Source of the DNA: Halostagnicola larsenii XH-48
GTDB taxonomy: Archaea; Halobacteriota; Halobacteria; Halobacteriales; Natrialbaceae
NCBI RefSeq assembly: GCF_000517625.1
Contig: NZ_CP007055.1
Span: forward strand, 1,984,001-2,048,000
Length of the DNA: 64,000 nt
Direction of reading: 5' to 3'
A program made the position numbers and the translations under genes. Below the pieces are notes generated by a model. The model did not search any database. It saw only the letters and a list, made by a program, of their open reading frames with translations, and was not told where the DNA came from. Below are positions 54,144 to 59,197 of the stretch, piece after piece (position 1 is the stretch's first letter; each line of letters starts with the position of its first letter).

Positions 54144-55325
54144 TTATCGAATGACGTCGACGCCGTTTTTCTGCTCGACTTTGTCTCTGCCGCCGTCACT
54201 CTGCGTGCCGGGGTGAGACGTTTCGACGTTGTTGCTCGCATCGAAATCGGCGTCGTTGAGCCCTTCGATACTCTGGCGGGATTTATCCGCCTGTTTTTGG
54301 GTCGTCGGACCGAGGACCTGCGCGCTCTGGACGCCGGTCATGATGGCCATAACGCGGACCTTGCCCTTGTAGTTCTCCTGAATGCGCGCGCCCCAGATGA
54401 CGTTTGCACTCGCCTCGAGTCGCTCGGTGATGTTGTCCGCGATGCCTTCTGCCTCTTTCAGTGTGAGATCCGGTCCACCGGTGATGTGAACGAGGCCGCC
54501 GGAGGCACCCCGATAGTCGACGTCGAGCAGCGGGTGGTTCATCGCGTCGCTGACGACTTCCTGTGTCTTGTTCTTGTCCTGTGTCTCGCCGACGAGCATC
54601 ACCGCGACGCCGCCCTGATTCATGATCGTGGACATATCCGCGTAGTCCAGGTTGATCAGGCTCGGCTGGGTGATCGTCTCCGAGATTCCCTTGACCGTTT
54701 CGGCGATGATTTGGTCCATCACCGAGAAGGCTTTGCCGATCGGGAGGTTCGGGACGTAATCGAGCAGCCGGTTGTTGTCGAGGACGATGATCGAGTCGGC
54801 CTGTTCGCGGAGTTTTTCGAGGCCTTCCTCGGCTTTGACCGTCCGAGCGCGCTCGACGTTGAACGGCGTCGAAACCATGCCGACGACGATAGCGCCCTGG
54901 TCTTTCGCGATTTTCGAGACGACGGGGGCGGCACCCGTGCCGGTGCCACCGCCCATGCCAGCGGTCACGAAGACGAGGTCCGCGTCTCCGAGAACCTCTT
55001 TGATCGTGCTCTGGGCCATCTCGGTCGCGCGTTCGCCCATCGATGGGTCGCCGCCGGCGCCGAGCCCGTTGGTGAGCGATTTGCCGACGAGAATCTTCGT
55101 GTCGGCTTCGATCATCTTCAGGTGCTGTTTATCGGTGTTGATCGCGACGGTATCCGCGCCGTCGACGCCGATGTTATACAGTCGGTTTATCGTATTGTTT
55201 CCAGCACCGCCACAGCCGACGATGACGATCCGCGGATCGCCGAACTCGTCGTCGTCCATCGATTCGTCCATCTGACGGGCTTCGGCTTCGGCGTTATCGA
55301 GGGCATCCTGTACGATATCCTGCAT
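54144..55325 (-). CDS. ftsZ2: cell division protein FtsZ2
   Basis: 393 residues. GTP-binding motifs [20 protein letters not shown] and [20 protein letters not shown]; synergy region [20 protein letters not shown]; the T7-type [10 protein letters not shown] precedes. Long N-terminal region ([17 protein letters not shown]) and C-terminal tail of about 40 residues. The assignment to FtsZ2 rather than FtsZ1 rests on the neighbours: ncsA on one side, cdrS and cdrL on the other, as in Haloferax and Halobacterium. FtsZ2 acts in ring constriction in haloarchaea. It starts 2 nt after the cdrS stop. Confidence 0.94.
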
Positions 55326-55327
55326 CG

Positions 55328-55507
55328 TTACACCTTTGCCCAGCCGCGTTTACCCGTCTGGTCGCGACGACCGTTCTGTTGTTCGTTGATCATTTCTCGG
55401 ACCGCCGACCGGATCGCCTCGCTCCGGTTCGGAAACTCGCCCGAGTCGACCAGCTGTTCGACTTCGTCGATCTGCTGTTCCGGAATTCGCAGTGTCACAC
55501 GCTCCAT
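55328..55507 (-). CDS. cdrS: CdrS, small ribbon-helix-helix cell division regulator
   Basis: 59 residues, too short for many gene callers. Conceptual translation begins [20 protein letters not shown], a beta-strand with RVTLRI, then [20 protein letters not shown], i.e. a complete CopG-type ribbon-helix-helix, then a basic tail ([14 protein letters not shown]). Its stop is 2 nt before ftsZ2, so the two are co-transcribed. CdrS is established in haloarchaea as a transcription factor controlling division genes. Upstream are several GTAAGAC operator copies. Confidence 0.93.
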
Positions 55508-55522
55508 TGTTGTATTCCCTCT

Positions 55523-55669
55523 GTAAGACGGTGCGCCCCTGTTAGACGCGGTGTCTTACACGGTAGATCGGCTGAGGCACCAGTTTGGCGCCGTTCCGAC
55601 CCGTTGTAAGACGATCGTCTTACGCAACTATAGCAATACTGTTCATGGGTAATAAATATTTCGTAAGAC
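55523..55669. promoter_or_regulatory. operator array upstream of cdrS-ftsZ2 (GTAAGAC/GTCTTAC repeats)
   Basis: Half-site GTAAGAC at 55523-55529; imperfect palindrome GTTAGAC-GCGGT-GTCTTAC at 55541-55559; perfect 18-bp palindrome GTAAGAC-GATC-GTCTTAC at 55606-55623; half-site GTAAGAC at 55663-55669. They bracket the T/A-rich core at about 55649-55660 (AATAAATATT). Ribbon-helix-helix factors bind such inverted repeats cooperatively, so CdrL, CdrS or both are the obvious candidates. Confidence 0.8.
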
Positions 55670-55684
55670 GGGAAAATTTCCGTA

Positions 55685-56278
55685 TTACGAATTTCTCGAG
55701 TGCTGGCTGTTCGAGTCGAGAACGTCCGCCGCGGCTGTCCGACGGCCACAGCCGGGACAGAACGCCCAGTCAGAACGCAGTTCGTCTCCACACTCACAGA
55801 ACAGGCGATGTGAAGCCTTCTCGCCGCAGTTCGGGCAGTATACGTGCTCCGGCGAGATGGATTCGCCACATTGCCCACACTGCTGTTCAGTGGGGCCCGG
55901 TTCGACGTGGGCCGTCCCTCGAGCGGGCGGGGCCTGACTGGCCGGATCAGCTTCGTTCGCCTCCGCTGTCTTACGAACGTGCGACGCGTTCTCAAGTGCC
56001 ACTGTGACGTTTACATCCTGGGGCTCTCGCTCTCGATGATCGGTAATCCGTTCCTCGAGCAGTGCATCGACTCGATCTCGAATGAACTCATCGATGCTCT
56101 CATGAGCCGATTCGTCTCGTGCTGGCTCCGCTTGGGTGATGGTCTCTCGTGACTGACCCGTCTCACCACCCTCGAGGTACGTCCGGAGCGCGTCGCGCAT
56201 GACTTCGCTCTTCGACGCGTCGAACGTCTCGAGTTCGTCGATGAGCTCGTCGTCAGCACGGAACGTGATCTTGCTCAT
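55685..56278 (-). CDS. cdrL: CdrL, ribbon-helix-helix plus zinc-ribbon cell division regulator
   Basis: 197 residues. N-terminal RHH (MSKITFRADDELIDELETFD, then KSEVMRDALRTYLEGG), a linker, and C-terminal double zinc ribbon: QQCGQCGESISPEHVYCPNC, then LFCECGDELRSDWAFCPGCG. This architecture, and the position directly upstream of cdrS-ftsZ2 on the same strand, is that of CdrL, which is known to control the cdrS-ftsZ2 promoter in haloarchaea. It has its own AT-rich promoter (around 56310-56330). Confidence 0.92.
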   Translation of the reverse strand: MSKITFRADDELIDELETFDASKSEVMRDALRTYLEGGETGQSRETITQAEPARDESAHESIDEFIRDRVDALLEERITDHREREPQDVNVTVALENASHVRKTAEANEADPASQAPPARGTAHVEPGPTEQQCGQCGESISPEHVYCPNCGEKASHRLFCECGDELRSDWAFCPGCGRRTAAADVLDSNSQHSRNS

Positions 56279-56401
56279 GAGTGTCTCGGTCGGGTTCGTA
56301 TTTCAGGCCATCCCTTATGAATATTTGCCTTTGTCGGACGGCTGTCACACAGCCCGGGAATGATAACCCTTATGTCCGTCTCGTCTGCTATGTTCGAGTG
56401 C

Positions 56402-56475
56402 CCGCCCTTAGCTCAGACTGGTAGAGCAGTCGACTGTAGATCGACTTGCCCCCCGTTCAAATCGGGGAGGGCGGA
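56402..56475 (+). tRNA. trnY: tRNA-Tyr(GUA)
   Basis: Acceptor CCGCCCT pairs with AGGGCGG, discriminator A at 56475. Anticodon stem GTCGA/TCGAC encloses CTGTAGA, giving anticodon GTA. T arm CCCCG-TTCAAAT-CGGGG. 74 nt, no intron and no encoded CCA. A 14-bp copy of its T-arm region occurs at 59107-59120. Confidence 0.94.
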
Positions 56476-56656
56476 CCTTTCTCCCCGTCGAATCGTGGCA
56501 GAAGCGAAAAGCGACGTATGACAACGGAATAGCACCGCTACCGGCGGAATCCGATTTCGGTCTACCCCCCGAAATTACTGAGTGGAACTTGCTACAAGTC
56601 GTACCCCTCCGCTGTCTGGTGAATTTTAGAGTTGAGATCTCCGGGAGTGAGTTTTG

Positions 56657-57142: not shown

Positions 57143-58771
57143 TTACTCAGACGGTTCGTTCACGCTGGTCGATTCGTCGACGCCGGCCTTCCGGCGCAGC
57201 CACTCAAGGCCGAGCGCCCCGCCGAGAAGTCCGCCACCGGCCGTGAAGCCGGGCACGTTGTCGGCGTCACTGTTGTTCTTGGTCTTCGTCTCGTTTTCAG
57301 CGTCCCCATCTCCGGCGGTTACGTTCCCGCTATCGCCGTCGTCGACGGACTCTCCGTCGTCGTCGGCCGGATCGTCGTCCGGACAGGGGCACTCGTCTTC
57401 GTCGTCACTGCCGTCTTCCCCCGCATCGCTGTCGTCCTCGCTGTCCTGCTGATCGTCTCCCTCGTCATTTCCTCCGTCCGTGTCGTCGTTCTCATCGGGC
57501 TGGTCGTCCGTGTCGTCGTTCTCATCGGGCTGGTCGTCCGTGTCGTCGTTCTCATCGGGCTGGTCGTCCGTGTCGTCGCTCTCGTCGGACTGGTCGTCCG
57601 TGTCGGTTTCTTCGCGAAGCGCCACGAGCTCGCCATCGTTATCGACGTAGATGGTTTCTCCGCTGATCGCACGAATGGGGCCGACCGGTGCGTCGTCTTT
57701 CGAGAGCGTCCACTTCTCGGACCCGTCGTACTTGGTCAAGGCGACGAGGTCGTTGCTCGCCTCCCCGTTCACGGGGTCGGTATATGCGAGATATGCGAAC
57801 ACGGTTTCGCCGCTGATGACGCCCTGTCCGGGGTGGTACTTGGAAGTCCACCAGTATTCGTCACTGTGGATCGAACCGCCGGAGTACCCATCCCCGAGGT
57901 CGCCGCCGACCATGATTTCTTCACCGAACGCTATCTCGTGGGACCCTGAAATCGAGGATACAAGCTCTCCCGTTTGGGCATCGTACAATTGCCAGTACGG
58001 GGGGTTACCGTTCAAAGCGACCGCTGTCGACGTCGCGTAGACGGCATCGTGGGTGGGGCCTCTGTCCCGCCAGACTTCGGCACCGGTCTCGGGCTCGAGA
58101 GCGATCGGTCCTGCAGTCGTGGCGCTGTAGACCACGCCGTTTGCCGCGGCGGGCGCCGCAATGAACTCGTGCTCGTCGTCGTCGCTGCTGACCGATTCCC
58201 GCTTCCACCGAACCGAGCCGTCGTCGGCTTCGAGTGCGTACAGCGTGCCGTCGGCGACGGCGTACACGCCGCCGTAAGCGACCGTCTGCCAGACGATCTC
58301 TTCCTCGGGATCGAACTCGGTTTCCCAGCGAACGCTCCCGTTGGATCGAGCGAGCGCGACGACCTCGTTCCCGCTGAGATAGACGGTCTCGCCGGCGACC
58401 GACGGCGTTCCCGCGTCGATATCCGTGTTCTCCCAGACGACGGTGCCGTCCGTCGCGTCGAGGGCGACGACACCGTCGTCAGTCGGCGTGTAGACCGTCT
58501 CGTCGGCGACGGCGACGGAACCTGCGCCCGCACCCGCGACGGACCACGCGGCCTCGAGTTCTCCACCGTCGAACTCGTGGCCGTCCGCGATGTATCTGGC
58601 GTGACCTGGGTCGCCTCGGTGTGACGGCCAGTCCTCGTTCGGTCCCGGATCGCGATCAGGATCCGGGAGCTCGTCGATGTCAGCCTCGGAAGCTCCGGCC
58701 CCCACCGAAGCGAGTCCGGTCCCGATCGTCAGCGCTGCACCAGTCGTCAGCACGGATCGTCGTTTCCACAT
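57143..58771 (-). CDS. secreted PQQ-like beta-propeller protein with Tat signal and PGF-CTERM anchor
   Basis: 542 residues from MWKRRSVLTTGAALTIGTGL. Twin-arginine signal (KRRSVLT, hydrophobic core, VGAGA). Residues about 60-400 are beta-propeller blades of the PQQ_2 type (VALDATDGTVVWENTDIDAG; LYALEADDGSVRWKRESVSS; LEPETGAEVWRDRG). Then a Thr/Asp/Asn-rich stalk with a 10-residue unit repeated (TDDQPDENDD) and the C-terminal sorting signal NVPGFTAGGGLLGGALGL followed by RRK, which archaeosortase A processes. The cofactor-binding residues of PQQ enzymes are not evident, so the function is likely structural or ligand binding at the cell surface. Confidence 0.9.
   Translation of the reverse strand: MWKRRSVLTTGAALTIGTGLASVGAGASEADIDELPDPDRDPGPNEDWPSHRGDPGHARYIADGHEFDGGELEAAWSVAGAGAGSVAVADETVYTPTDDGVVALDATDGTVVWENTDIDAGTPSVAGETVYLSGNEVVALARSNGSVRWETEFDPEEEIVWQTVAYGGVYAVADGTLYALEADDGSVRWKRESVSSDDDEHEFIAAPAAANGVVYSATTAGPIALEPETGAEVWRDRGPTHDAVYATSTAVALNGNPPYWQLYDAQTGELVSSISGSHEIAFGEEIMVGGDLGDGYSGGSIHSDEYWWTSKYHPGQGVISGETVFAYLAYTDPVNGEASNDLVALTKYDGSEKWTLSKDDAPVGPIRAISGETIYVDNDGELVALREETDTDDQSDESDDTDDQPDENDDTDDQPDENDDTDDQPDENDDTDGGNDEGDDQQDSEDDSDAGEDGSDDEDECPCPDDDPADDDGESVDDGDSGNVTAGDGDAENETKTKNNSDADNVPGFTAGGGLLGGALGLEWLRRKAGVDESTSVNEPSE
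57481..57600. repeat. 30-bp tandem repeat in the stalk of the PGF-CTERM protein
   Basis: Three identical 30-bp units (57481-57510, 57511-57540, 57541-57570) followed by one diverged copy (57571-57600). They encode the TDDQPDENDD decapeptide of the acidic stalk. Copy number probably varies between strains by slippage. Confidence 0.9.
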
Positions 58772-59197
58772 AGCTATCCGAGTACGAAGAATATCTGTCA
58801 TAACCCTATATGGTAGTTAATATGACTTTTTAGATCTGCAATTGTTTCAGACTGTTCAGGACGCAGACCTAGGTGGCGGTCAGTTCACCGTAAAAGAGAG
58901 TGAGGTTAACACCACGGGAGGACTTCTATGACACTCTCGACTGTATCCCTGTATCGGACGGCTACGTGAGATATGCCGCATCACTTCGTAGAAGACGATT
59001 AGGACACACCATTCTTCGTGTGTTTCGTGAATGGGTCCTGTTGAACACGGAAGTCACAGGCCCGCACAGCTGAGCACCGCGAGGCAGGCAGGAACGTCTT
59101 CCATCTGTTCAAATCGGGGATATCGACCCCAGTCGGATCGTAGCAGAGACACGAGGCTGTGGACTCCGGCTTCGTCGGCGACACGCAAATCCGAGCC
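58772..59197. other. gene-free stretch with a tRNA-Tyr T-arm copy
   Basis: 426 bp without a supported gene. Left end has a T/A-rich patch (CCTATATGGTAGTTAATATGAC) that likely holds the promoter of the PGF-CTERM gene. A 14-bp exact copy of tRNA-Tyr sequence (GTTCAAATCGGGGA) is at 59107-59120. Confidence 0.5.
59107..59120 (+). repeat. 14-bp direct copy of tRNA-Tyr T-arm, possible relic attachment site
   Basis: GTTCAAATCGGGGA is identical to 56455-56468 within the tRNA-Tyr T arm and in the same orientation, 2.65 kb away. Haloarchaeal integrative elements recombine at the 3' half of tRNA genes and leave such copies. No integrase gene remains between the copies, so this is only a possible scar. 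Confidence 0.35.

Follow-up and report, generated by a model that had tools for sequence, protein, structure and literature searches.

A probable operator array of GTAAGAC heptads for the RHH regulators CdrL and CdrS at the cdrS-ftsZ2 promoter of haloarchaea

The RHH proteins MetJ, Arc, CopG, NikR and the omega repressor act at short repeated or inverted boxes on which RHH dimers sit side by side. The NikR half-site, GTATGA, resembles the heptad GTAAGAC described here. The present array differs from these operators in its heptad sequence, its strict 11-bp register, its location at a division gene of the tubulin family and the presence of a half-site within the coding sequence of the neighbouring regulator. 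In the archaeon Halobacterium salinarum, ChIP-seq of the RHH regulator CdrL has been reported to yield a sole reproducible site, upstream of cdrS-ftsZ2, and the cdrL deletion to have carried second-site mutations (PMC7439475). The promoter and the neighbouring RHH gene are the same as those analyzed here, and a single target in vivo fits a single palindrome. The available text does not contain "motif" or "palindrom" and gives no motif or site architecture, whereas the evidence presented here is base-resolved, spans the class and concerns a second reader (PMC7439475). In Haloferax volcanii, CdrS was shown to have a symmetric motif and 18 ChIP sites, which include ftsZ1 and hisB but not the cdrS promoter (PMC8406309).

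The window analyzed here is a stretch of 64 kb from Halostagnicola larsenii XH-48 that holds cdrL, cdrS and ftsZ2 (Table 1). The preliminary description of this DNA had placed RHH factors on either side of the promoter. CdrS exceeds the RHH_1 cut-off, and its residues 1-9 (MERVTLRIP) are invariant across 169 loci. The CdrL of the window scores 19.2 bits, just under the cut-off, but RHH_1 was matched by 12/12 CdrL sequences at E<=0.01. Residues 3/5/7 of the RHH strand are retained as K/T/R in CdrL and R/T/R in CdrS. Helices of CdrL are predicted at 10-18 and 23-37, in a protein whose structure model is of low overall confidence (mean pLDDT 63, pTM 0.26). Among PDB sequences, CdrL gave weak zinc-ribbon matches only and CdrS gave weak matches of the CopG/NikR type. 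Elsewhere in the window, a protein predicted to be exported, which has acidic DDTDDQPDEN repeats, is encoded at 57143-58801, near tRNA-Tyr (56402-56477).

Table 1. Genes and putative regulatory elements of the cdrS-ftsZ2 locus (window coordinates).
Feature	Coordinates	Strand	Remarks
ftsZ2	54144-55325	-	PF00091 and PF12327; co-oriented with cdrS, 2-nt gap
cdrS, 59-aa RHH regulator	55328-55507	-	PF01402, 33 bits (cut-off 20.5)
Half-site D, GTAAGAC	55523-55529	+	Read directly; GTCTTAC in the cdrS sense; just 5' of the cdrS ribosome-binding site
Imperfect palindrome C, GTTAGAC-gcggt-GTCTTAC	55541-55559	.	Read directly; 5-nt spacer; in the cdrS 5' UTR
Perfect palindrome P, GTAAGACGATCGTCTTAC	55606-55623	.	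4-nt spacer, 11 bp from heptad to heptad; covers ~+1 to +18 of the predicted cdrS transcript
Predicted cdrS-ftsZ2 TATA element, ATATTTATTA on the minus strand	55650-55659	-	Between A and P
Half-site A, GTAAGAC	55663-55669	+	Directly 5' of BRE/TATA; GTCTTAC in the cdrS sense
Degenerate partner of A, GTATTAC	55682-55688	+	Read directly; 12-nt spacer to A
cdrL, RHH + middle region + double zinc ribbon	55685-56278	-	PF24252 CdrL_M 31.3 bits, DZR 32.7 bits, both over cut-off
Heptad E, GTAAGAC within the cdrL coding sequence	55968-55974	-	Read as R-K-T (CGT AAG ACA)
CdrS-type heptad pair in the cdrL promoter, GTCGGACggctGTCACAC	56333-56350	.	Two mismatches from GTCWGAC-N4-GTCWGAC

Direct reading of the letters recovered, within 147 bp, the two half-sites, the imperfect palindrome and the perfect 18-bp palindrome of the preliminary description, together with the T/A-rich core that they flank, which corresponds to the predicted TATA element. 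The degenerate partner of A, the sixth heptad (E) and the pair in the cdrL promoter had been overlooked. The GTATTAC partner is also present in another Halostagnicola locus; in other species it stands at other spacings or is absent. Exact GTAAGAC occurs seven times in the window, against 4.8 expected per 64 kb, and five of these copies fall inside the 147 bp (Poisson P ~1.4e-12). With a spacer of 2-7 allowed, the 4.13-Mb genome holds a single copy of the palindrome. A 3-mismatch scan of the genome returned 53 sites versus 44 for a reversed-pattern control, so that no further GTAAGAC palindromes rise above the control and P at cdrS is a lone outlier. Chance clustering of the heptads was ruled out by the Poisson probability (~1e-12), the genome-wide uniqueness of P and the control scan.

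The motif search at other haloarchaeal cdrS promoters that the preliminary description had called for revealed strong enrichment. In counts across species that, owing to relatedness, are not independent trials, GTAAGAC-N2-7-GTCTTAC is present in 286/292 Halobacteria genomes, in single copy in nearly all, versus ~5/292 for the reversed-pattern control. Outside Halobacteria it was found in 3/204 genomes versus ~15 for the control, i.e. at background level. P stands ~86-155 bp upstream of cdrS in 164/169 parsed loci and was found in 78/80 named cdrS loci. Its half-sites lie 11 bp apart, start to start, in 132/164 loci and 12 bp apart in 22/164. All fall within N2-N6, with spacers differing among species, and the orientation of the flanking sites changes. 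Among the 169, most of the cdrS loci without P have a palindrome that departs from it by one or two changes. CdrS itself was found in 291/292 Halobacteria genomes. One genome without the palindrome (G229) has no CdrS, CdrL or FtsZ2, so its locus is absent from the assembly or was lost. Loci of the Haloquadratum type (L220, L226, L062) have three direct heptads, GTATGACtgcGTAAGACggtGTATGAC, with a 10-bp period in place of the palindrome.

Between A and P, conservation is highest in TTTATA, which starts 32-33 bp upstream of P (163 loci). Given this distance and the geometry of haloarchaeal promoters, the predicted cdrS transcription start should lie near the first base of P. The flanking heptads were counted with up to 1 mismatch in 159 CdrL-containing loci and in coding background (n=169). 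A was found in 152/159 loci (background 24/169), C in 118/159 (20/169) and D in 155/159 (17/169). C is located ~65-68 bp downstream of P, and in many Natrialbaceae its second arm is GTCTGAC, the CdrS type. D is located at ~-25 from the cdrS ATG, beside a conserved GGGG ribosome-binding site. Mismatches in A fall mainly at middle positions 4-5 and leave GT and AC untouched, a pattern that would be expected if each heptad were bound by a two-fold symmetric RHH dimer.

Ten Haloferax ftsZ1 promoters carry GTCRGAC-N4-GTCTGAC upstream of TATA, and the same motif, GTCAGAC-N4-GTCTGAC, stands in front of hisB in Haloferax. Because ftsZ1 and hisB are both on the published CdrS ChIP list, GTCAGAC-N4-GTCTGAC is most likely the CdrS box. 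In Halobacterium, the only CdrS box of the ftsZ1 promoter (L274) is a degenerate one, in agreement with the independence from CdrS reported for this gene (PMC7439475). P shares the 7+4+7 layout of the ftsZ1 and hisB sites, with the same 4-nt spacer and 11-bp period, but differs from the CdrS box at heptad position 3 (A instead of C) and at its symmetric counterpart. The heptad of P is GTAAGAC in 164 loci and does not match GTCWGAC; only some arms of C read GTCTGAC. Furthermore, the Haloferax CdrS sites number several per genome and lie upstream of promoters, whereas P lies over the start. One Haloferax genome also has a second FtsZ2-like gene on another contig (L270, G210:C19:12204-13277), with 81% identity to the FtsZ2 of the window.

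Phased heptads were also found beyond the class, in 15 cdrS loci (L320-L334) of other Halobacteriota on the methanogen side, which have ftsZ downstream and are without CdrL. The 140 bp before cdrS contain 60 GTCWGAC-like heptads in these 15 promoters, versus 3.5 in shuffles and 2 in a control stretch. The heptads are spaced almost exclusively at 11, 22, 33 and 44 bp and are often in direct orientation. The first usually lies 36-41 bp after TATA, near the position of P. The likely ancestral state suggested by these promoters is a GTCAGAC array in 11-bp phase by which CdrS acted at its own promoter. The repeated boxes at helical spacing that an RHH array should have are thus found in P, in the outgroups and in the cdrL promoter. 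GTCWGAC-type pairs at exactly 11 bp occur in 79/153 cdrL promoters (up to 2 mismatches in all), against 0-14 at other spacings and 0 at 11 bp in a coding control.

The coding sequence of cdrL has retained a heptad of its own. Wherever cdrL has RKT in the stretch of E (79 genes), the exact heptad is present, and 100 GTAAGAC sites were observed in 153 cdrL genes, for which synonymous resampling gave 16.5 (maximum 27). The Arg of RKT is encoded by CGT in 76/76 and, in a second count, 79/79 genes with the heptad, where CGT makes up ~19% of Arg codons. In two cdrL loci the heptad is kept despite a residue change to Ser or Cys; in the Cys case it lies elsewhere in cdrL and may be due to chance. The stretch that holds E is a linker predicted to be disordered. 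The invariant CGT, the heptad kept despite residue change and the disordered stretch point to apparent DNA-level selection on a coding half-site across many haloarchaea. The helical phasing of E relative to P, considered as a possible sign of looping, shows some clustering (R 0.37-0.43, n 98, with species that are not independent).

Which protein reads the array can be addressed by comparing genomes with and without CdrL. If CdrL alone read all GTAAGAC heptads to control the neighbouring cdrS-ftsZ2, the motif should follow CdrL. At the level of the class it does, since the GTAAGAC palindrome and CdrL are both restricted to Halobacteria, and the one palindrome per genome matches the single CdrL ChIP peak (PMC7439475). 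In addition, A tracks the presence of CdrL in these comparisons and is mostly gone where CdrL is gone (3/9 versus 152/159 loci). CdrL was undetected in 11/292 Halobacteria genomes by a profile search that scored best candidates only, so these genomes could conceivably encode a diverged CdrL relative that is short and has an RHH domain alone. The ten CdrL-less genomes with cdrS (G001, G007, G002, G026, G092, G135, G260, G137, G281 and G182) belong to seven genera and all retain a perfect P, and D is intact in 9/9 of those in which A and D were scored by the common rule. The spread over seven genera, two of which include species with CdrL as well, makes the losses of CdrL look independent. The persistence of P and D argues for a reader other than CdrL at both sites, and CdrL as the only reader of P is rather unlikely. 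The second reader is most likely CdrS, which is universal, has an invariant DNA-binding strand and, in the CdrL-less outgroups, is accompanied by phased heptads in the corresponding promoter region. The persistence of P and D without CdrL could even suggest a purely CdrS-autoregulatory operator, with the CdrL ChIP signal caused by recruitment via CdrS or by binding elsewhere in the region. This is unlikely, since CdrS sites elsewhere are GTCAGAC rather than GTAAGAC, A tracks CdrL and the cdrS promoter is missing from the CdrS ChIP list, as is, as far as can be told, the cdrL promoter (PMC8406309). The N-terminal FLAG tag, next to the DNA-binding strand of CdrS, may bias that list. P also stays GTAAGAC, not GTCAGAC, in the CdrL-less genomes, which would not obviously be required by a pure CdrS reader.

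A third DNA-binding protein common to all haloarchaea would explain both P without CdrL and the missing cdrS promoter. It is quite improbable as the reader of the palindrome, given that an extra factor is needed, that the heptad length and 11-bp spacing closely match the CdrS box and that CdrL occupies the region in vivo. P, C and D could also be imagined to work at the RNA level, as hairpins of the 5' UTR or as elements of the leader, given the placement of P and C within the predicted leader and the potential of P to form a 7-bp stem with a tetraloop. A role in RNA is highly improbable, as A is located on the 5' side of TATA and E within cdrL, P has variants with mismatches that break the pairing (GTAAGAC..GTCATAC, GTAAGAC..ATCTTAC), direct orientation is frequent among the heptads of the outgroups and an Rfam search gave no match.

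We therefore favour, with a probability of roughly 0.6, an operator array in DNA that the RHH regulators CdrL and CdrS would read and that descended from a CdrS autoregulatory array. The assignment of proteins to heptads, repression at P, activation at A and feedback are what we infer for such an array. Each 7-bp heptad (GT-NNN-AC, nearly symmetric) would fit one RHH dimer, and two heptads separated by a 4-nt spacer, 11 bp or one helical turn apart, would fit a pair of dimers. At P, which lies over the predicted transcription start, binding would most likely repress by blocking polymerase loading. A adjoins BRE/TATA on the upstream side, the position taken by CdrS at ftsZ1, and binding there may cause activation or looping with P. 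Further occupancy would come from C, D and the cdrL coding heptad. In relatives without CdrL, the ancestral 11-bp-phased GTCAGAC array would have given CdrS control of its own operon; in haloarchaea, the heptad would have changed from GTCAGAC to GTAAGAC, with CdrL joining as a reader. CdrS would act at cdrL and ftsZ1 through CdrS-type boxes, and CdrL with CdrS at cdrS-ftsZ2, a mutual wiring. A more detailed version is doubtful. In it, CdrS homodimers would read the symmetric GTC-A-GAC (ftsZ1, hisB, cdrL and methanogen cdrS) and CdrL-CdrS heterodimers the asymmetric GTA-A-GAC (haloarchaeal cdrS), so that the ratio of the proteins would set ftsZ2 and ftsZ1 expression via the mutual wiring, with the cdrL heptad as an auxiliary operator. 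The preliminary description had suggested graded or cell-cycle-tuned autoregulation from multiple sites with different spacers. Conservation supports the view that the array at the cdrS-ftsZ2 promoter is a regulatory operator. Simple one-factor autoregulation does not hold, because CdrL on the array is regulation by a neighbouring gene and CdrL-less genomes keep the palindrome.

In a search of the published literature (preprints lay outside it), the array was not found described, and no paper on GTAAGAC with Haloferax was found. New here are the 11-bp array on the methanogen side, GTCAGAC-N4-GTCTGAC at Haloferax ftsZ1 and hisB and in degenerate form at cdrL, the cdrL coding heptad and the retention of P without CdrL. 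The array is a base-resolved cis-element at an archaeal division operon; Halobacteria have conserved it, and its ancestry can be followed into methanogen relatives. A coding sequence appears to retain an operator heptad, and the two small regulators are predicted to be mutually wired. The lineages that have lost CdrL are natural tests of which protein reads which site. The finding bears on the timing of FtsZ-based division in archaea, for which exact sites for mutation are now named.
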